Below are positions 1 through 7,360 of a stretch of DNA of 7,360 bases, piece after piece. Position 1 is the first letter of the stretch; every line of letters begins with the position of its first letter. The translations under genes were made by a program, and so were the position numbers. The stretch comes from Pseudomonadota bacterium (lineage in GTDB: Bacteria; Pseudomonadota; Alphaproteobacteria; Micropepsales; Micropepsaceae): positions 1 to 7,360 of the forward strand of contig JAKBAU010000182.1 in the NCBI GenBank assembly GCA_021808875.1, in the 5' to 3' direction. The notes beneath the pieces are model-generated. The model did not search any database and was not told where the DNA came from. It worked only from the letters and a program-made list of their open reading frames with translations.

Positions 1-1
1 C

Positions 2-277
2 GTGGTGAACATCCAAAGCCAGAACGGCAATCCCACTTATCTCAAGCTTGAAGTCACGCTTGAGCTCAAAAACGCCAAGGAAGAGCAGGGCGTTAAGGTG
101 CTGATGCCGCGGATTGTAGATCAGTTTCAGAGTTATTTGCGCGAGTTACGCGTCGCCGATCTGCAGGGCTCGGCGTCCGTGATGCGGGTGAAGGAAGAGC
201 TCCTGCGGCGGATCAATGTCGCTGTCGCACCCTACCGCGTGCAGGATGTTCTGCTCAAGGAAATGATTGTTCAGTAA
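2..277 (+). CDS. fliL: Flagellar basal body-associated protein FliL, C-terminal part (5' end outside window)
   Basis: FliL is a single-pass inner-membrane protein whose periplasmic domain surrounds the MotAB stator and modulates its activity. Only the last 91 residues are present. The frame is open to the left edge, so the GTG at position 2 is not a true start; the N-terminal TM segment and linker lie upstream. The visible part is the conserved periplasmic domain: a strand with YLKLEVTLEL, then the helix MPRIVDQFQSYLRELRVADL, then VKEELLRRINVAVAP and the terminal VQDVLLKEMIVQ. This matches the typical FliL ending, with hydrophobic residues closing the chain a few residues before the stop. The stop (TAA 275-277) lies 14 bp before fliM, consistent with the common fliL-fliM order and one transcript. 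Identification is confident because of both sequence and neighbour. Confidence 0.93.
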   Translation: MVNIQSQNGNPTYLKLEVTLELKNAKEEQGVKVLMPRIVDQFQSYLRELRVADLQGSASVMRVKEELLRRINVAVAPYRVQDVLLKEMIVQ

Positions 278-291
278 ATGGAACCAAGATT

Positions 292-1332
292 ATGGCCGAC
301 GAAGAGCTAGCGCCGCAGGAAGCAGCTGCCGACAGTGAAAATGGCAGCCAAGTGGCGGGTGAACGCGTTCTGAACCAGGAAGAGATCGACAGCCTTCTGG
401 GCTTCGATGTCAATGATGAACAGCTGCAGGACAAGTCTGGTGTCCGCGCCATAGTTAACTCGGCGCTGGTATCCTACGAACGCCTGCCGATGCTCGAAAT
501 CATTTTTGACCGCCTGGTTCGGCTCATGACCACGAGCTTACGGAACTTTACCTCCGACAATGTCGAGGTCAGTCTCGACAACATCACGTCAATCCGCTTC
601 GGCGATTATCTCAATTCCATTCCATTGCCCGCCATTCTTTCGGTATTTAGGGCCGAAGAACTCGATAATTATGGGCTTTTCACGATCGATTCCAATCTCA
701 TCTATTCGATCGTTGACGTATTGCTGGGAGGCCGTCGGGGAACCGCGGCGATGCGTATCGAGGGGCGTCCGTACACCACCATCGAGCGCAGTCTGGTGCA
801 GCGCATGACGGAAGTCATTCTGCAGGACATGACCCAGGCTTTCGAACCTCTGGCACCTGTCAACTTTACGCTCGATCGACTTGAAACCAATCCACGCTTT
901 GCAGCGATTGCACGCCCGGCCAACGCCGCCATCCTCGTTAAGCTGCGTATCGACATGGAAGATCGTGGCGGACGCACGGAGCTGCTTCTGCCCTACGCCA
1001 CCCTCGAACCCATCCGCAAACTGCTGCTGCAACAGTTCATGGGTGAAAAATTCGGTCGTGACTCAATCTGGGAAACCCATCTTGCAACCGAGCTGTGGTG
1101 CACGCGGCTCGACATTCAGGCGATCTTGGATGAGCAGGTGATGTCGGTATCAAAAGTTATGGATCTCAAGGTCGGCGATACCTTAATGCTCAATGCAAAC
1201 CCGGACTCCACCATTGAGCTGCGCTGTGGCCATGTACCGCTGCTCAGCGGACGCATGGGACGCGTCGGCAATGCTGTGGCTGTCCGCGTCGAGCAGGCGG
1301 TCAAACGCGCTGACGCCTCACGGCAGCTGTAA
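292..1332 (+). CDS. fliM: Flagellar motor switch protein FliM
   Basis: FliM is the middle component of the cytoplasmic C-ring. It binds phospho-CheY through its N-terminus, contacts FliG through its middle domain and FliN through its C-terminal SpoA domain, and so sets rotation direction. The 346-residue length is usual. Residues 27-37 (LNQEEIDSLLG) are the CheY-binding EIDxLL motif. Residues 60-245 form the CheC-like middle domain, with GGRRG at 146-150 corresponding to the conserved FliG-contacting glycine motif. Residues about 265-335 form the SpoA/FliN-like domain (LKVGDTLMLN, IELRCGHVPLLSGRMGRVG). The start is the ATG at 292, preceded by a weak GGA at 280-282. An ATG at 278 is out of frame and closes at 308-310. 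The motif is preceded by about 26 acidic, Ala/Glu-rich residues, longer than the enterobacterial leader. fliM follows fliL by 14 bp and precedes the next gene by 9 bp. Confidence 0.97.
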   Translation: MADEELAPQEAAADSENGSQVAGERVLNQEEIDSLLGFDVNDEQLQDKSGVRAIVNSALVSYERLPMLEIIFDRLVRLMTTSLRNFTSDNVEVSLDNITSIRFGDYLNSIPLPAILSVFRAEELDNYGLFTIDSNLIYSIVDVLLGGRRGTAAMRIEGRPYTTIERSLVQRMTEVILQDMTQAFEPLAPVNFTLDRLETNPRFAAIARPANAAILVKLRIDMEDRGGRTELLLPYATLEPIRKLLLQQFMGEKFGRDSIWETHLATELWCTRLDIQAILDEQVMSVSKVMDLKVGDTLMLNANPDSTIELRCGHVPLLSGRMGRVGNAVAVRVEQAVKRADASRQL

Positions 1333-1336
1333 GGAG
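1331..1336 (+). promoter_or_regulatory. Ribosome binding site overlapping the fliM stop
   Basis: AAGGAG lies within and directly after the fliM TAA (1330-1332), 5 bp before the ATG at 1342. It is the strongest Shine-Dalgarno sequence in the operon segment. It fixes the start of the small downstream gene and suggests translation coupled to fliM termination. Confidence 0.75.
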
Positions 1337-1341
1337 CCACC

Positions 1342-1773
1342 ATGTCGATCTCGCTCTATATTGAAATATTACTGTGCATCCTGCTCGTGGCAACGCTTGG
1401 CTTCTGTCTTGTCCTGGAGCGCAAACTCAGCGCGATGCGCAAGGGCCAGGACGGACTCAAGGTCGTGATTGCCGAACTTAATGGCGCTATCGGTGCGGCG
1501 GGTACCTCGATGCGGCTGCTGAAGTCAGCGGCTTCTGGTGCGATCGAGGAACTCGATGAAAAGGTCACGAAAGCCCGTGCTGCGATTGATGAGCTCTCTG
1601 TACTCACCACAAGCGGTGATCGCATTGCCGCACGCATCGAGCGCAGCGTTGAGACGCAAGGTGGTTCAAAGTCGCCGGTTCTGCCGGCGGCAGCCGAGCG
1701 CTTGGCTGGTATAGGTTCACGCGTCTTGCGTACCAAGCTGCCGCTTGAACAGGCCGTGGGGGGTGTGCGGTGA
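1342..1773 (+). CDS. DUF6468-like membrane-anchored coiled-coil protein in flagellar operon
   Basis: A 143-residue protein of unknown biochemical role. Residues about 5-25 are a hydrophobic helix (IEILLCILLVATLGFCLVL) followed by the positively charged stretch ERKLSAMRKGQ. This suggests a single N-terminal membrane anchor with the remainder cytoplasmic by the positive-inside rule. Residues about 30-105 are almost entirely helix-forming with heptad-like spacing of Leu/Ile/Ala and alternating charges, probably a coiled coil. The last 35 residues are Gly/Pro/Ala-rich and likely unstructured. Size, topology and position directly after fliM match my memory of the DUF6468 family in alphaproteobacterial flagellar loci. 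That assignment is from recall and was not searched. Its GTGA overlap with the next gene (4 bp) indicates translational coupling with the MotE-like protein. A role in assembling or scaffolding the motor at the membrane is inference only. Confidence 0.72.
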   Translation: MSISLYIEILLCILLVATLGFCLVLERKLSAMRKGQDGLKVVIAELNGAIGAAGTSMRLLKSAASGAIEELDEKVTKARAAIDELSVLTTSGDRIAARIERSVETQGGSKSPVLPAAAERLAGIGSRVLRTKLPLEQAVGGVR

Positions 1774-2546
1774 GCCAGCTCTTCAGGCAGCTTCGCCTGT
1801 TACCTGTGGTCATATTTATGTGCGGGACGCTGATCGCCCTCAAAGGAGCAAACCTGATTGCACAGGCTCGTGCCGGGGCGCCGGCAACGGCAACCTCCGC
1901 GCCGCCTTCTTCCAGCAAGAGCGCGAGTGCCAGTGATGCAATGCTTGATGAGAACACTGATAGCGCCTCGGAAATCGACGTCCTGACTTCCCTGGCAAAG
2001 CGTCGGCGGGCCCTTGATCGCGACGCGCAGGCGCTGAATATGCGCGCCAACCTTTTGACCGCCGCAGAAAAGCGTGTAGACGCCAAGATTGCTGATCTCA
2101 AAGGCCTCAAGGCGCAAATTCAGGCATTGCTTGGACAGCGCGACGCCGCCGAGGCCAAGCAGGTCGCGACTCTGATCAAGGTCTATTCGGCCATGAAACC
2201 GCGCAACGCCGGACGTATCTTCGATTCCCTCGATCAACATGTGCTTCTGGAAGTGGCTTCCGGCATGCAGCCGGACGCTCTGGCTCCCATTCTTTCTGCC
2301 ATGTCGCCGCAGAACGCGCAGGCGCTGACGGTGGCATTGGCCGAGCGGCTGCGGCTGCCGCAGGGCGCTGCAACGGCAGCTGCCGCGCAGGCACTGCAGG
2401 CAAATGTGGCAACACCGTCGCATGCTGCCGCCACATCCACCACGGCCGCGAAGCAGGCTGCACCGTCACCGAACACCGTCGCTGCTGCTGGCGCGGCGGC
2501 GGCCAGCGGCGCGGCCGCATCGCCACCGCCCGCAGCGCAGAACTAG
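1770..2546 (+). CDS. MotE-like flagellar protein with MgtE_N-type domain
   Basis: A 258-residue protein resembling the MotE family. In rhizobia MotE is a periplasmic chaperone for the motor protein MotC. Residues about 10-24 are hydrophobic (LLPVVIFMCGTLIAL) and act as signal anchor or uncleaved TM segment. Residues 33-65 are a Ser/Ala/Pro linker. Residues 66-128 are a charged coiled coil (SLAKRRRALDRDAQALNMR). Residues about 130-192 form the MgtE_N-like helical domain, recognisable by LIKVYSAMKPRNAGRIFDSL, LLEVASGMQPDALAPILSAM and the following SPQNAQALTVALAERL. Residues 198-258 are an Ala/Pro/Ser/Thr low-complexity tail, which makes it longer than the rhizobial MotE as I remember it. The GTG start at 1770 overlaps the previous stop as GTGA. 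A G-rich run at 1758-1763 may serve as the ribosome site, and the next in-frame ATG would cut the membrane helix. The family call is good; a chaperone role is inferred. Confidence 0.78.
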   Translation: MSQLFRQLRLLPVVIFMCGTLIALKGANLIAQARAGAPATATSAPPSSSKSASASDAMLDENTDSASEIDVLTSLAKRRRALDRDAQALNMRANLLTAAEKRVDAKIADLKGLKAQIQALLGQRDAAEAKQVATLIKVYSAMKPRNAGRIFDSLDQHVLLEVASGMQPDALAPILSAMSPQNAQALTVALAERLRLPQGAATAAAAQALQANVATPSHAAATSTTAAKQAAPSPNTVAAAGAAAASGAAASPPPAAQN

Positions 2547-2553
2547 CGTGGTA

Positions 2554-2559
2554 CGGAGG
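2554..2559 (+). promoter_or_regulatory. Ribosome binding site of the giant TPR gene
   Basis: CGGAGG sits 9 bp before the ATG at 2569. It decides the start. The reading frame is open back to 2404, and an in-frame GTG at 2548 exists, but neither has a comparable Shine-Dalgarno sequence, and only the ATG places a signal peptide at the N-terminus. Confidence 0.7.
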
Positions 2560-2568
2560 CCGGCTGGG

Positions 2569-5500
2569 ATGACGCTGACGCGCGGCAGAGAGGGGCAGGT
2601 ACGGCGCTGGACTGCCATCGCCGCGTTTGCTCTTGGTCTTGCTGGCCCGTCCTGTGCCGCTGGCCTAACGATCACGAGCGCGAATGGCTATGGGCGGCTG
2701 ATTTTCAGCAATGAGCACCCCGAAGCGAAGGTTGAAGACAGTGTTTTTGTGCTTCAATTTGCCCATCGTCCGCCTTTCACCGCCAAAGAGATCATGCGCA
2801 GGCTGCCGCGCTATATTTCCGATGCCCATGCTGGCCCCCGCGGCAAAACCTTCCGCTTTGCACTCATAAACCCGGTGTGGCTGCATCAGTCCAGCTCCGG
2901 TGACCTTTTCGCTGTCGACCTGGTTCCGGCGAACTATACCGGTACCCCTCCAGATTTGCCGCCGCCGCCACCGGTGACACCCAAACCGGTGAATATCGCG
3001 GCGCTGCCGGTCCTGCCGATCCGCGCGGGTGCCTATGCTCACTTCTCGCGTCTGCTCTTCGTCCTCAAGTCGCCCATTACCTATTCGATATTCCCCGGTT
3101 CCGGGCGGATCACCCTTCACTTTGACGCCAAGTTGCGTCCGGACTTCACGGCGCTGGAAACCGTGGCGCCGCCCTGGGTCAAAGCCGCAGGCTGGCACGT
3201 CGACAGCACCGGAACGGTTATTAGCTTCAACACCCTGGCGGGATCCGGCTATCATAGCTTCCGCAGCGGAGATGATGTGGTGCTGGATATTCTGGCGCCG
3301 CGCAGTGATAGCCAGAGCTATGATCCACCGGGCGTGAAGGGTGCAGCGGCCAGGGGTAAAATCCATTGGCTAACGTCAGATCCGAAGCATGGTGCAGCGA
3401 AAGCTGTCTCGCAGCGACAGGCAGTGCTGAATGCCGTGGCAGCGATCGATGGCAAGACGGCGCGGAAGGTTGTTGTGCCGCTGCCCACTCCGCGGCCGCA
3501 TCGCGCCAAAGACGCAGCCACATTGAGCTCGTCTCTGCCGGTTACGGCGAACGCCAGCTCGGCCACGCTGAGCTTTCCAGCAGGTACGGCGATTGCGGCG
3601 TTTATGCGTGAAGGAAACGCGTGGATTGTTCTGAGTTCGGCAAAGCCACTGCAGGTGTCATTCCTGACGAAGGCCCTGGGTGGATTTTCCAATGCTGTTA
3701 CGGTCTCGAGCCAGGCGGGTGTAGGCGTGGTACGCATCGCACTGCGCCAAGCTGAGCAGATTCGTGTCACAAGCGACGGAGCTGCAAACGTGGTGCGTAT
3801 AGCACCCAGCTTCGCCAGCACCTCTGTCGCCCGGCCCCTGACGATTACCCGCGATATTGATACTCCTGATGTTGCGGCGTTGCGCGTTGCATTGCCAGGC
3901 GCCCAGGTGCCGCTTCAGTTGAACGATCCGGTGGCGGGCGACACGCTCATCGTCGTTCCTGCGACACCCGGACGGGTGCTCACGCATGCGGATCGCTATG
4001 TTGATTTTGCGGCGCTGCCGAGCGCTTCCGGGCTCGTCATTTCGCCCTATGCTGAAGGTCTGGACGTCCGCAGTTCTGGCGATCATGTGCGCATCAGCCG
4101 GCCGGGCGGCCTGCGACTGACGGCTGGCGCAATTCCTGCGGTAGCAAATCCTGCAACACTCGCCGAAATTACCAACGGGCCGAGCTACCTCAATTTTGCT
4201 GCCTGGGCACATCCCATGCATCTGGACGTGCTGGAGACCGAGCGGGCCCTGCGCGATGCGGCCGCGGCCCTGCCCTCGGCGCAGGCCAATGGCGCGCGCC
4301 GCCAGGAAGCGCAATTCTACATCGCCAACCGGCTTGATGCCGAAGCGCTCGGGGTGGTTGCCCAAATGCAGAGTTCGGATCCGACTTTGCAGGACGATCC
4401 GGAGCTTCAGACCATCAAGGCCGCCGCCGACGTTATGATGGCAAGATATCGTGATGCACGATCGGCCCTCTCTGCGACAGCGTTCGCGAATGATCCCCAT
4501 GCCGCGATCTGGCGAGGCCTTGCCGATGCCGGGCTGCGACGCTGGCCGGAGGCGCGCCACGCCCTGATGTTGGCGATGAGTGTTATCGGGCGTTACCCGC
4601 CAAACTGGCAGGCCCGCGTACGCCTCGCCTATGCCCATGCAGCCATTGCCACGCGGGCGCTGGGGGTAGCCAAAAAAGTGCTGGCCGGAATACCCAAGGG
4701 CCTGAGGCCACCACTATCTTATGAAGCCGAACTGGCGCAGGCACGGATAGCTGTGGCAGAGGGCCGCTATCGTGCCGCGGCACCATTGCTTGCGGCGCTG
4801 AAGCAATGCCCGGATCCCAAGGTTGCAGCGCACGCGATCTATGATGATGCCCTATCGGCTCTTGCGGCCGGTGCCATAAGCCAGAGCCAGGCTATCGCCA
4901 GTCTTGAGCGCTTGCGTTATCGCTGGCGTGGAGACGCACTTGAATTGCAGACGCTACGCAAGCTTGGCTCGCTCTATTTTGCGCAGAAGAAGTGGCGCAA
5001 GGGCCTTGGCGTGCTGCAGGTTGCGGTCGAGAGTTTCCCCAATGACGAATCCACGCGCCATGTCCAGGACGACATGCGCAAGGCCTTCATTGCGCTGTTT
5101 CTTCATGGCAAGGCCGACAAGATGCCACCCATCCAGGCGTTGGGTCTGTTTTATGACTACATCGACCTGACGCCGATTGGCGCTGATGGTGATGCCATGA
5201 TCCGTCGCATGGCCAACCGGCTTGTTGACATCGATCTTCTCGGGCCTGCGGAAAAGCTGCTCAAATACCAGGTCGACAAGCGCCTCAATGGCGTTGCTCA
5301 GGCACAGGTAGCCGGGCGTCTGGCCATGGTCTATCTGATGGACCACAAGGCCCGGCATGCGCTCGCGGTGTTGCGGGCCACGCGGGTCGCGGGGATGCCC
5401 GATGATGTTGCCCATGCACGTCTGCTACTGGAGGCCAGGGCTCTGGCCGCGCTCAAACAATATACGCAGGCGCTGGATCTGATCGCGGTCGAGAAGGGTG

Positions 5501-5883
5501 CAGATACCCAGCGTCTGCGGGCCGACATATATTGGGAGAGCGGCAACTGGCCCCTGGCCGGGCGGGAGGCTGAAGCGCTGCTCGGCGATGCATGGTCAAC
5601 GAAAGGGGCGCTCAGCAAAGTGCAGCGTCGCTATGTCATGCGGGCGGCGATCGCCTATTCGCTCGCGGGTGATGCCGCGAGCCTGTCGCGGTTGCGTAGC
5701 CATTTCGCCCAGCAGATGGCTCAAGGCCCCGATGCCGCGTCCTTTGCTGTTGTTACCCAGAATGTTTCCACGCAAGGCGTGGCCTTTCGCGATGTTGCAG
5801 CCAAGGTTGCCTCGATCGACACTCTTGAGAGCTTTATGAAGGATTTCAAGAAGAGTTTTGACGCTATTCCTTCGGTACAGTAA
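2569..5883 (+). CDS. Giant exported protein: tandem beta-rich (AMIN-like) repeats plus TPR-like superhelix
   Basis: A 1104-residue exported protein of unknown function. Residues 1-31 are a Sec-type signal peptide: R12-R13, a hydrophobic core WTAIAAFALGLAG at 14-26, and probable cleavage after CAA at 29-31. The mature N-terminal half is beta-rich, with three alignable units of about 70-90 residues. Unit 1 (40-120) starts GYGRLIF and ends FAVDLVP. Unit 2 (155-244) has RLLFVL and ends VVLDILAP. Unit 3 (339-414) ends VVRIAPS. They resemble AMIN-type domains, which in other proteins bind the cell envelope. A Pro-rich linker lies at about 127-140 and a less ordered segment at 245-338. From about 540 to the end the chain is helical with degenerate TPR-like units, for example 646-673 (RRWPEARHALMLA), 799-827 (YFAQKKWRKGLGVLQ), 955-975 and 984-1005 (WESGNWPLAGREAEALL). 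The mature chain has a single cysteine (747). It follows the MotE-like gene by 22 bp, suggesting a periplasmic motility factor. Exported TPR protein is secure; a motor role is inferred. Confidence 0.8.
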   Translation: MTLTRGREGQVRRWTAIAAFALGLAGPSCAAGLTITSANGYGRLIFSNEHPEAKVEDSVFVLQFAHRPPFTAKEIMRRLPRYISDAHAGPRGKTFRFALINPVWLHQSSSGDLFAVDLVPANYTGTPPDLPPPPPVTPKPVNIAALPVLPIRAGAYAHFSRLLFVLKSPITYSIFPGSGRITLHFDAKLRPDFTALETVAPPWVKAAGWHVDSTGTVISFNTLAGSGYHSFRSGDDVVLDILAPRSDSQSYDPPGVKGAAARGKIHWLTSDPKHGAAKAVSQRQAVLNAVAAIDGKTARKVVVPLPTPRPHRAKDAATLSSSLPVTANASSATLSFPAGTAIAAFMREGNAWIVLSSAKPLQVSFLTKALGGFSNAVTVSSQAGVGVVRIALRQAEQIRVTSDGAANVVRIAPSFASTSVARPLTITRDIDTPDVAALRVALPGAQVPLQLNDPVAGDTLIVVPATPGRVLTHADRYVDFAALPSASGLVISPYAEGLDVRSSGDHVRISRPGGLRLTAGAIPAVANPATLAEITNGPSYLNFAAWAHPMHLDVLETERALRDAAAALPSAQANGARRQEAQFYIANRLDAEALGVVAQMQSSDPTLQDDPELQTIKAAADVMMARYRDARSALSATAFANDPHAAIWRGLADAGLRRWPEARHALMLAMSVIGRYPPNWQARVRLAYAHAAIATRALGVAKKVLAGIPKGLRPPLSYEAELAQARIAVAEGRYRAAAPLLAALKQCPDPKVAAHAIYDDALSALAAGAISQSQAIASLERLRYRWRGDALELQTLRKLGSLYFAQKKWRKGLGVLQVAVESFPNDESTRHVQDDMRKAFIALFLHGKADKMPPIQALGLFYDYIDLTPIGADGDAMIRRMANRLVDIDLLGPAEKLLKYQVDKRLNGVAQAQVAGRLAMVYLMDHKARHALAVLRATRVAGMPDDVAHARLLLEARALAALKQYTQALDLIAVEKGADTQRLRADIYWESGNWPLAGREAEALLGDAWSTKGALSKVQRRYVMRAAIAYSLAGDAASLSRLRSHFAQQMAQGPDAASFAVVTQNVSTQGVAFRDVAAKVASIDTLESFMKDFKKSFDAIPSVQ

Positions 5884-5915
5884 GCCGCCATGAACGAGCC
5901 TTGGTCGGACAGATC

Positions 5916-7118
5916 TCAGATCGTCGCGATCTTGCGGCCGAATTGCCAATAGAGTGTACCGAGGATCAAGCAGGCGAGGCCGCTGACGCCGGCGTCTGTC
6001 AGCAGCGTGCCGACGAGGCCGACGACGTGGTAGGCATTGCCATCGAGGACCTGCATATACGTCAGTGGAATCTGCGTCGCGCCCAGGAGCACGCCATACT
6101 GGGTGGCCGCGAGCGGATTGTCATGACCGATGGTACGCAGCGTGATGGCATTGGCTGCTGAGAAGGCGGCGGCCTGAAACAGGTTTTCGCCCATGATGGC
6201 GATACCGAAGGTGATGGCATCGTGCGCCTGGGGCAGGAGCGAGACGGTGAAGGTGGCGCCGACCAGGCCGACCAAAAGATAGATGGTAACGGGCGACATA
6301 CGCTTGGCGATCTGCGGTACGACGAGACTGCCGCAAACCCCGGCGATGGCGACGCCGGCACCGCCGATGAGCCCTACCATTTCGTCGGAGGTGTGGAAGT
6401 CGTGACCGAATCCCGAAAGCGTGTTGGTGAGCGCGAAGGAGGCGGCAGGAGCCAGAAATATTGCGAGGATCCATTGTACCTCCTTGCGGCGGAACATGGC
6501 GATCACATCGGTGCTGAACGCCTGAAAGCTCTCGCTGGCCAGTTTGCCATCCGCACGCGGACAAGGTGTACTCAGGTAAAGCGGCAGTACGAGCAGAACG
6601 AGAGCGGCCGTCGCGATGGCTCCCCACGGCGCAGGCAAATGGCGCATGGCGAAGATCGAAAACGCCGCGGCCACACCGCCGCCGCCAAAATTGGCGATGG
6701 TAAACCAGGCTCCCAGTGAATCTTTCTGCTCGGTCGGCAGCAGATTGCCGAACCAGCCTCCTACCGAATTGACGACCAGCACGTTGGAAAGACCGCTGAG
6801 GAAAAGAAAAATGGTCAGCAGACTGACATTGCGAACGGCGAGCAGGCTGGCGCAGGTGAAGATCGCGCACAAAATGGTAAAGACAATCGCATAGCTGCGG
6901 CGCGCATAGCGCCAGTCCAAAATGGGAGTGATCGGAATCCCGATAAAGGCTGTGGCAAGATAAAGCGAGGTCACCGTGGCGATCTGAACTTCCGGTGTGT
7001 GTGCAGAGGCGAGCAGATCTGGAACGGCAATGATGCCTACCGAGCCGTTGATCGCGAGCGGTAAATTTCCCCAGCCCAGGAGCCACGGCGGCAAGGTCCT
7101 GTCGGATTTGTTGGTCAT
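5916..7118 (-). CDS. Major facilitator superfamily transporter, 12 TM
   Basis: A 400-residue polytopic inner-membrane protein with about 12 hydrophobic segments. TM1-6 lie at about 12-36, 46-67, 75-94, 98-121, 135-158 and 164-182. TM7-12 lie at about 214-237, 247-270, 275-295, 301-327, 337-358 and 364-390. The two halves are joined by a charged cytoplasmic loop at 183-213. DWRYARR at 68-74, between TM2 and TM3, fits a degenerate MFS motif A. A GGGG run at 145-148 in TM5 is compatible with the flexible helix of the family. E311 in TM10 and D375 in TM12 are intramembrane acidic residues that might couple to protons. The substrate cannot be told from sequence. The start chosen is the ATG at 7118 with GGA at 7126-7128, 7 bp upstream. 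A TTG at 7154 would add 12 residues without a better ribosome site. The gene runs convergent to the flagellar operon with a 32-bp gap and is probably transcribed alone. Confidence 0.85.
   Translation of the reverse strand: MTNKSDRTLPPWLLGWGNLPLAINGSVGIIAVPDLLASAHTPEVQIATVTSLYLATAFIGIPITPILDWRYARRSYAIVFTILCAIFTCASLLAVRNVSLLTIFLFLSGLSNVLVVNSVGGWFGNLLPTEQKDSLGAWFTIANFGGGGVAAAFSIFAMRHLPAPWGAIATAALVLLVLPLYLSTPCPRADGKLASESFQAFSTDVIAMFRRKEVQWILAIFLAPAASFALTNTLSGFGHDFHTSDEMVGLIGGAGVAIAGVCGSLVVPQIAKRMSPVTIYLLVGLVGATFTVSLLPQAHDAITFGIAIMGENLFQAAAFSAANAITLRTIGHDNPLAATQYGVLLGATQIPLTYMQVLDGNAYHVVGLVGTLLTDAGVSGLACLILGTLYWQFGRKIATI
5918..5932. repeat. Short perfect inverted repeat near the convergent gene ends
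   Basis: AGATCG-TCG-CGATCT forms a 6-bp perfect stem with a 3-base loop. It lies within the last codons of the transporter gene, starting 35 bp after the stop of the giant TPR gene. No run of T follows on either strand, so it is at best a weak terminator or mRNA end structure. It could also be chance in GC-rich coding DNA. Confidence 0.3.
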
Positions 7119-7334
7119 GAATGCATCCGGATTTGCACAGGCTACCTTGCCCAAGCAGGCGGGCTCAGAGCAAGCGTGTACGGAATATCTCTTGCCCCTC
7201 TCTCCCTGGCGGCGCCAGCGCCGCGAGCCGGCAATGCGAAGCTGCCCACGAGTTCCGCGAACGTTTCCTGAACATCTTTAAATAATACTGTAAAAACAAT
7301 ATCTTATTTCCATCCTTGCGAACAGGAACAAAAC
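7119..7334. other. Divergent intergenic region
   Basis: These 216 bp separate the start of the - strand transporter from a putative + strand start. The transporter-proximal two thirds is GC-rich. It holds a 5-bp stem with a 3-base loop at 7206-7218 (CTGGC-GGC-GCCAG) with no T tract. Toward the right end, about 7277-7310 is markedly AT-rich compared with the rest of the window. I see no convincing coding sequence on either strand, no tRNA and no recognisable riboswitch. The region must hold the transporter promoter and, if the right-hand gene is real, that promoter as well. Confidence 0.6.
7277..7305 (+). promoter_or_regulatory. Possible sigma70-type promoter in AT-rich tract
   Basis: TTTAAA (7277-7282) and TATCTT (7300-7305) are spaced by 17 bp and each match the consensus at four of six positions. 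Transcription would begin near 7312, giving a leader of about 23 bases before the ATG at 7335. On the opposite strand the same tract contains TATTAT (7287-7282), a good -10 match without a clear -35. AT-rich DNA often yields such matches by chance, so this is a candidate only. Confidence 0.3.
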
Positions 7335-7360
7335 ATGTACGATCCGCCTCAGCCAGCCCC
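7335..7360 (+). CDS. Possible 5' end of a new gene, cut by window edge
   Basis: An ATG at 7335 begins an open frame reading MYDPPQPA and continues to the window end. AGGA at 7324-7327 lies 7 bp upstream, a good Shine-Dalgarno position, and an AT-rich tract with a candidate promoter precedes it. A Pro-rich N-terminus is not enough to name a family. Eight to nine codons cannot prove a gene; the support is the ribosome site and the context. Confidence 0.45.

Follow-up and report, generated by a model that had tools for sequence, protein, structure and literature searches.

What do a MotE-like protein and a very large exported protein encoded directly after it do in an alphaproteobacterial flagellar operon? 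This question was raised by a stretch of 7,360 nucleotides from the family Micropepsaceae (positions 1 to 7,360 of JAKBAU010000182.1, hereafter the window), which is part of contig C92 in a 3.29-Mb genome of 171 contigs. On one strand, the window carries in this order the C-terminal part of fliL, fliM, a DUF6468 gene, the motE-like gene and the gene for the large protein, which we call the giant; a gene of the major facilitator superfamily (MFS) follows on the opposite strand. We concluded that the pair very probably represents a MotE protein of the flagellar E-ring and a giant spoke of the periplasmic motor scaffold. The direct basis was gene anatomy, synteny, flagellar co-occurrence, and the resemblance of the two folds to a FliF-YlxF model and to the Campylobacter jejuni scaffold.

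The open reading frame (ORF) of the MotE-like protein ran from a GTG start at 1770 to a stop at 2546 (1770..2546, +; 258 aa), and that of the giant from ATG 2569 to 5883 (2569..5883, +; 1104 aa), with GGAGG at 2555-2559 ahead of it. The DUF6468 stop and the MotE-like start shared 4 nt (GTGA, 1770-1773), and the gap between motE and the giant gene was 22 bp. Because of the overlap, the short gap and the GGAGG, the genes looked like one operon. The initial annotation had described a MotE-like gene, a 22-bp gap and a 1104-residue exported protein in a flagellar operon, and this description was borne out by the ORFs and the Pfam matches of the neighbours. A listed open frame with a giant start at ATG 2404 was rejected; it would overlap motE, and the signal peptide would fall inside the protein. 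A single giant match was found in the window genome.

The E-ring has been described in relatives. According to the current view, MotE, FlgY and FlbB make up the E-ring of the flagellum, and the tetratricopeptide repeat (TPR) proteins PflA, MotC and MotK are their structural partners (PMC13023049). The links drawn are MotE-MotC/MotK, FlgY-PflA and FlbB-FlcB, and CC_2059 and CC_2058 of Caulobacter were named as homologues of FlgY and PflA, respectively (PMC13023049, PMC11870540). Deletion of CC_2058 (fssB) kept the filaments and abolished swimming, as deletion of motB did (PMC7885107). MotK is composed of AMIN and TPR, and both MotE and MotK interact with MotB2 (PMC10954123). In relatives, others have shown the binding of MotE to MotC and MotK, the rings of FlgY and FlbB, and the paralysis of the Caulobacter fssB mutant.

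The MotE-like protein carried the traits of the E-ring family, namely an ARM-like head, a long helix before the head and an N-terminal hydrophobic helix. An AlphaFold2 model was built from a 30-sequence alignment (mean predicted local distance difference test (pLDDT) 77.3, predicted template modelling score (pTM) 0.48). It predicted a transmembrane helix at residues 10-35 (1797..1874, +), which coincided with a hydropathy peak, and a long helix, presumed to be a coiled coil, at residues 63-141 (1956..2192, +; block pLDDT 95-97 from about residue 71). The stretch between these helices was flexible. A four-helix ARM-like head was predicted at residues 144-212 (2199..2405, +; helices 144-153, 156-165, 168-177 and 180-212), followed by a low-confidence Ala/Pro tail. 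MgtE_N matched residues 131-190 (E 2.7e-5, 25.1 bits), slightly under the Pfam cut-off of 25.9, and the FliG, MgtE and 9a67_B matches lay at about 113-197. In the model, the layout matched the published plan of FlgY and FlbB, in which an ARM-like head follows a long helix; FlbB and CC_2059 also carry a transmembrane motif (PMC13023049).

With the spirochaete FlbB model NF047368, the MotE-like protein gave E 5.1e-6 and 26.4 bits, well short of that model's cut-off of 110. The model also matched 25 of the 30 aligned sequences at E<=0.001, the best of them at 4.8e-9. Every other NCBIfam family matched at most one of the 30, so the FlbB match was not that of just any coiled coil. The best Foldseek match of the model in the PDB was chain 9a67_B of the FliF-YlxF model (E 1.4e-3; next 9.2e-2), and ylxF of Bacillus subtilis is an apparent FlgY homologue (PMC13023049). 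The gene lay in a flagellar neighbourhood of fliL, fliM and DUF6468, which differs from the fliJ/fliK neighbourhood usual in other lineages.

The giant begins with a predicted Sec signal peptide at about residues 1-31 (2569..2661, +), in which a basic start is followed by the most hydrophobic stretch of the protein near 16-35. This region was poorly conserved (0.29 majority identity), and judging from its letters the segment could instead be an uncleaved anchor. The AlphaFold2 model (pTM 0.51) predicted strands of beta domain 1 at residues 32-120 (2662..2928, +), AMIN-like beta domain 2 at 148-243 (3010..3297, +), beta domain 3 at 325-412 (3541..3804, +) and beta domain 4 at 435-512 (3871..4104, +). 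The profile at about 140-300 matched AMIN-containing amidases, and a weak PilQ match was found for domain 2; in a type IVa pilus model, chain Qa, which we take to be PilQ, was aligned over 146-410. A TPR-like helical arm with TPR folds was predicted at residues 543-1099 (4195..5865, +). A family signature R-x-RWRGD-x-LE was located in this arm at residues 783-792 (4915..4944, +), with R783, R785-D789, L791 and E792 invariant in 26 diverse members. In Pfam, TPR reached only E 0.21 in the window giant, and TPR_2 was found at E<=0.01 in 10 of the 26 family members; AMIN reached that level in three of the 26, the window giant not among them.

The mean column identity of the family was 62% over 44 sequences, which placed the giant far from a chance ORF. 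By sequence and AlphaFold2, it has N-terminal AMIN-like beta domains and C-terminal TPR helices, as in spoke proteins of the PflA, MotK and FssB kind. In the PDB, Foldseek ranked 9hmf_K first, a chain from the periplasmic scaffold of C. jejuni, with E 2.4e-8 against 1.0e-6 for the next match. MotC is smaller than the giant. The initial annotation had called the giant much larger than rhizobial MotC and different in architecture. The first part held, and the second called for revision; a beta domain at the N-terminus followed by TPR is also the order described for PflA and MotK, and a structural kinship with MotC is drawn in PMC13023049. A protein search scored 7992 candidates, and among the best 120 of 451 matches the named close homologues were mostly from Rhizomicrobium or unclassified Alphaproteobacteria.

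The two genes were found together in many genomes. A pattern scan returned at least 80 places, which gave 78 named giant-encoding loci. The order fliL-fliM-DUF6468-motE-giant on one strand was found in 58 of the 78. MotE lay upstream of the giant on the same strand in 63 of the 78, and in 58 of these 63 it was less than 400 bp from the first profile match of the giant. The initial annotation was right to place the pair in a single module of the flagellar motor. Fifteen loci had no upstream MotE, nine of them with about 2.0 kb or less of sequence upstream of the match. In L050, L057, L073, L076, L078 and L079, no MotE was found upstream in more than 7 kb of upstream sequence.

An even draw of 337 alphaproteobacterial genomes was searched, with E<=0.001 for a giant match and E<=1e-20 for a strong giant. 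A giant match was found in 188 genomes, a strong giant in 175, FliM in 188, MotE in 182 and DUF6468 in 173. Strong giant and FliM occurred together in 164 genomes, the giant alone in 11, FliM alone in 24, and neither in 138. The odds ratio was 86, uncorrected for kinship among genomes. For strong giant and MotE, the corresponding numbers were 162, 13, 20 and 142. FliM, strong giant, MotE and DUF6468 were all present in 152 of the 337. FlhA was present in 9 of the 11 strong-giant genomes without a FliM match, and the remaining two (G217 and G314) had C-terminal giant fragments only. The initial annotation had spoken of a motor scaffold in this lineage; with 175 of 337 genomes of the class carrying a strong giant, a novelty specific to the lineage was rejected.

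The main cross-table leaves out the 13 of 188 giant-match genomes with E>1e-20. When they were kept, the numbers were 169 with both, 19 with the giant only, 19 with FliM only and 130 with neither. Eight of the 13 had no FliM match, and in these the giant profile matched a short part of an ORF 280-830 residues long. A local profile search of these eight at E<=1e-10 gave nothing in seven and a match in L115 (G166), and no Pfam family was found for the weak giant match there; FlhA was found in three of the eight and not in five. The other five (G111, G215, G317, G326 and G330), in which FliM was present, may encode divergent giants. Nineteen genomes had FliM but no giant match at all; FlhA was present in 17 of them, and they may use other partners such as MotC. 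Of 259 Pseudomonadota genomes, 68 matched the giant at E<=0.001, and all matches at E<=1e-180 were within Alphaproteobacteria. The best match outside the class was 2.4e-10. Matches outside the class covered either a short run of TPR or the profile region of about 140-300, and a Pfam scan of three of the latter gave AMIN-Amidase_3-LysM proteins in all three.

The window pair was compared with known systems. By published descriptions, it matches the Caulobacter pair in adjacency and architecture. In Caulobacter crescentus, CC_2059 and CC_2058 are adjacent as in the window; CC_2059 (MotE/FlgY) has a transmembrane motif and 264 aa against the 258 aa of the window protein, and CC_2058 (FssB; UniProt Q9A6M9) is described as secreted, with an AMIN-like start and TPR, as predicted for the giant, and as structurally PflA-like. 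DUF6468 is found in Caulobacter too. In Caulobacterales, motE is usually upstream of motA (PMC10954123), which is not so in the window. FlgY of C. jejuni has the E-ring head and long helix of the window MotE, but a signal peptide in place of the transmembrane helix. PflA of C. jejuni consists of an N-terminal beta-sandwich, a linker and a TPR superhelix, and thus has one beta domain against three to four in the giant. Cereibacter sphaeroides has a pair like that of the window, MotE and the secreted AMIN-TPR protein MotK, in its fliL operon, and both are needed for rotation (PMC10954123). MotK, with about 650 residues, is shorter than the giant and has no BLAST similarity to Caulobacteraceae proteins (PMC10954123). 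In Sinorhizobium meliloti, a MotE family protein has a TPR-rich periplasmic partner, MotC, which is needed for rotation (PMC13023049), a pair likened here to that of the window by description. Its MotE has a signal peptide and its motE lies between flgI and flgH, unlike in the window. FlbB of Borrelia burgdorferi has a transmembrane motif without a signal peptide and has TPR partners, like the window pair; that species has a multi-protein collar (FlcA-FlcD), and the window MotE matched FlbB far below the cut-off, as given above.

The pair is not new in kind, since a deletion of the Caulobacter TPR gene dates from 2021 and the naming of that pair from 2025. The proposal in the initial annotation that the giant is a periplasmic stator or motor scaffold paired with MotE was the best reading. 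This functional idea was broadly right and has already been published for a relative. What was added here is a sequence-conserved, class-wide spoke family, the co-occurrence figures, the fold links of both proteins to E-ring and scaffold structures, the MotE-FlbB sequence link and the MotB pair described below.

We infer that the genes are orthologous to CC_2059/CC_2058, that MotE dimerises and touches the giant directly, and how the spoke is oriented. The MotE-like protein would be anchored in the inner membrane via its one helix and would dimerise through the 79-residue helix. Its four-helix heads may form an E-ring round the FliF MS-ring. The giant would be exported by Sec, and its TPR arm (543-1099) would dock on the coiled coil that the E-ring extends outwards. 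The N-terminal AMIN-like beta domains may reach outwards to peptidoglycan and/or MotB. Each copy of the giant would then act as a spoke to position and activate a stator unit.

Several points weighed against this reading. The C. jejuni flgY deletion strain remains motile (PMC13023049), which means that the E-ring is not always needed. For MotE and 9a67_B, the template modelling (TM) scores were 0.25/0.31 and no Foldseek match reached E 0.001, so this match was support and not proof. Chain 9a67_B is unnamed by molecule, and is presumably YlxF judging from its 204 residues and the title. For the giant and 9hmf_K, the global TM-scores were 0.16/0.22 and the root-mean-square deviation was 31; the low scores meant that the match was piecewise. 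VIA Z ranked many unrelated TPR chains first, 9hmf was absent from the top 50 VIA rows, and TPR proteins match many unrelated TPR chains. The unnamed chain 9hmf_K is presumably PflA judging from its 773 residues.

The same holds for genomes in which the flagellar link was broken. In the 337-genome draw, 24 FliM-positive genomes had no strong giant. A full-length giant (L050:7884-11405) was found in a possibly incomplete Robiginitomaculum metagenome-assembled genome without a FlhA match; no motE or fliM was found within 7.9 kb upstream of it. C-terminal pieces of the giant (L057:7305-9008 and L073:7980-8597) and the fragments in G217 and G314 also came from genomes without a FlhA match. The initial annotation had proposed a survey for the giant outside flagellated genomes and flagellar loci. 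Such cases were mostly lacking (164 of 175 with FliM, 9 of the 11 others with FlhA), and those that appeared without FlhA were the full-length L050 giant, the G217 and G314 fragments, and the L057 and L073 pieces. The latter two look like decay after the loss of flagella and could also be a re-used part of the giant. Each lay near an ORF resembling a chemoreceptor by eye.

Other explanations of the pair were weighed on the same evidence. The initial annotation had suggested that the giant could be the client of the MotE-like protein, as MotC is of the chaperone MotE. The partnership stood, but a chaperone with no lasting part in the motor appeared improbable. That role belongs to the older view from S. 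meliloti, where deletion of motE lowers MotC and MotE binds MotC (Eggenhofer 2004, via PMC13023049), and the adjacency of the two genes would fit it as well. MotE is now considered an E-ring subunit, and its relatives FlgY and FlbB were seen as structural subunits by cryo-electron tomography (PMC13023049). In addition, a transmembrane helix and a long helix ending in a head are predicted for the window MotE, its best PDB match came from a model with FliF, and 20 genomes had MotE but no strong giant, all of which argue against such a role. We regarded another role of the giant as very improbable, namely that of an envelope or surface-sensing factor which binds peptidoglycan, is merely co-transcribed with flagellar genes, affects the cell wall or stator-dependent surface signalling, and forms no spoke. 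The AMIN-like domains of the family, the identification of fssB as a suppressor of holdfast induction (PMC7885107) and the full-length giant of the FlhA-less L050 genome would suit this idea. Against it stood the tight co-occurrence with FliM and FlhA, the loss of motility of the fssB deletion strain, like that of the motB deletion strain (PMC7885107), and the best fold match to a C. jejuni scaffold chain; the four FlhA-less genomes G217, G314, L057 and L073 held C-terminal pieces only.

A further possibility overlaps with the assignment as a spoke. The giant might be an outer rim or collar of the PflB or FlcA type rather than a PflA-like spoke, or both merged, which we considered unlikely. 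A single giant copy was present in the genome, and the protein is much longer than the 773-residue 9hmf chain and has three to four beta domains, which would suit this possibility; PflA and PflB are not safely separable by Foldseek with an unnamed 9hmf chain. On the other hand, the beta domains come before the TPR, as described for PflA. PflB is defined by a transmembrane motif and a mid-structure beta pair (PMC11870540), and the model of the giant had no predicted strand after residue 510, although at its pTM the model might overlook a distant beta pair. There was also no 19-residue stretch with a mean hydropathy >1.2 beyond the N-terminus, where the first segment could still be an anchor.

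The reading as ring and spoke gained further evidence from other lineages, in which the motE-giant interval held, on the same strand, genes for a CheY-like regulator, a CheZ-like protein and two MotB-like proteins (B1 and B2). In L128 (3574-6034), these were CheY at 3574-3960, CheZ at 3964-4596, MotB' at 4600-5307 and MotB at 5318-6034. A similar arrangement was observed in L126, L134 and L143, and the MotB pair alone or with part of the cheY/cheZ set in L068, L125, L131 and L133. Pfam gave MotB_plug and OmpA in all three scanned B2 proteins; for B1, MotB_plug was above the cut-off in one of four and below it in three (E 5.4e-5 to 0.003). In all 16 aligned pairs, B2, the second gene, kept the Asp of a TF(A/G)D-like motif, and B1, the first gene, had Ser, Gly, Ala or Cys at this position. 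We take this Asp to be the ion-carrying Asp of MotB. It agrees with the account of MotB in PMC10954123.

Three of the 78 named loci contained both MotB genes, as did 13 of 20 regions picked mostly for their motE-giant gap. The B1 profile at E<=1e-20 matched 75 of the 337 genomes, and all 75 also had a giant match. For 68 of them giant coordinates were listed, with both genes on the same contig in 64 and on different contigs in 4. In all but one of these 64 same-contig genomes (63), the distance between B1 and the giant was under 3 kb. This meant that the giant and the MotB pair were syntenic over wide distances, which gave independent support for a stator role. In an open-access and partial literature search, including the available part of PMC12505986, we found no description of an Asp-less MotB pair in Alphaproteobacteria. 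No MotB pair lay beside the giant in the window, and the single MotB_plug match of its genome was on a different contig.

The position of the MotB pair between the ring and spoke genes hints, in a way open to testing, at a joint evolution of ring, spoke and stator as one unit, possibly with an asymmetric stator. A joint reading is conceivable but doubtful. In Alphaproteobacteria, a protein of about 1,100 residues, whose TPR arm carries three to four beta domains, might cover the spoke and rim or collar work that is split elsewhere. Many lineages might inherit it with a stator cassette of two MotB paralogues, one without the ion-carrying Asp. In their motors, MotB and MotB' might pair as an asymmetric heterodimer in which a single ion path is active, with the MotE ring and the giant spoke keeping it in place, and the window lineage might have kept ring and spoke without the adjoining MotB pair.

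The remaining genes of the window were assigned as follows. The fliL gene, truncated by the window start, retained its C-terminal part (2..277, +; PF03748 8.8e-17), and fliM encodes the C-ring switch protein (292..1332, +; PF02154 5.5e-70, TIGR01397 1.1e-99). The DUF6468 protein (1342..1773, +; PF20072 5.7e-14) is, from its gene position, probably the counterpart of Caulobacter pflI, where the gene order is fliL, pflI, motE (PMC10954123). Among 14 control genomes, PF20072 matched in Caulobacter vibrioides only. DUF6468 co-occurred with FliM in 166 of the 173 DUF6468-positive genomes of the draw. The MFS transporter gene (5916..7154, -; E 2.1e-17) was convergent with the giant gene, with the stop codons 32 bp apart and no sign of module membership.

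Shorter relatives of the giant, of about 840-875 aa, were observed in L076 (7353-9947), L079 (7719-10235) and, at a similar length, L078. Those of L076 and L079 were without the two N-terminal beta domains in the alignment, and both were away from motE; the L076 genome has FlhA. Partial C-terminal relatives were also found in two plasmid records, both large replicons, NZ_CP081002.1 of Sphingobium sp. V4 (29.6% over 49%, 2e-22) and NZ_CP031358.1 of Erythrobacter aureus (28.1% over 45%, 7e-19).

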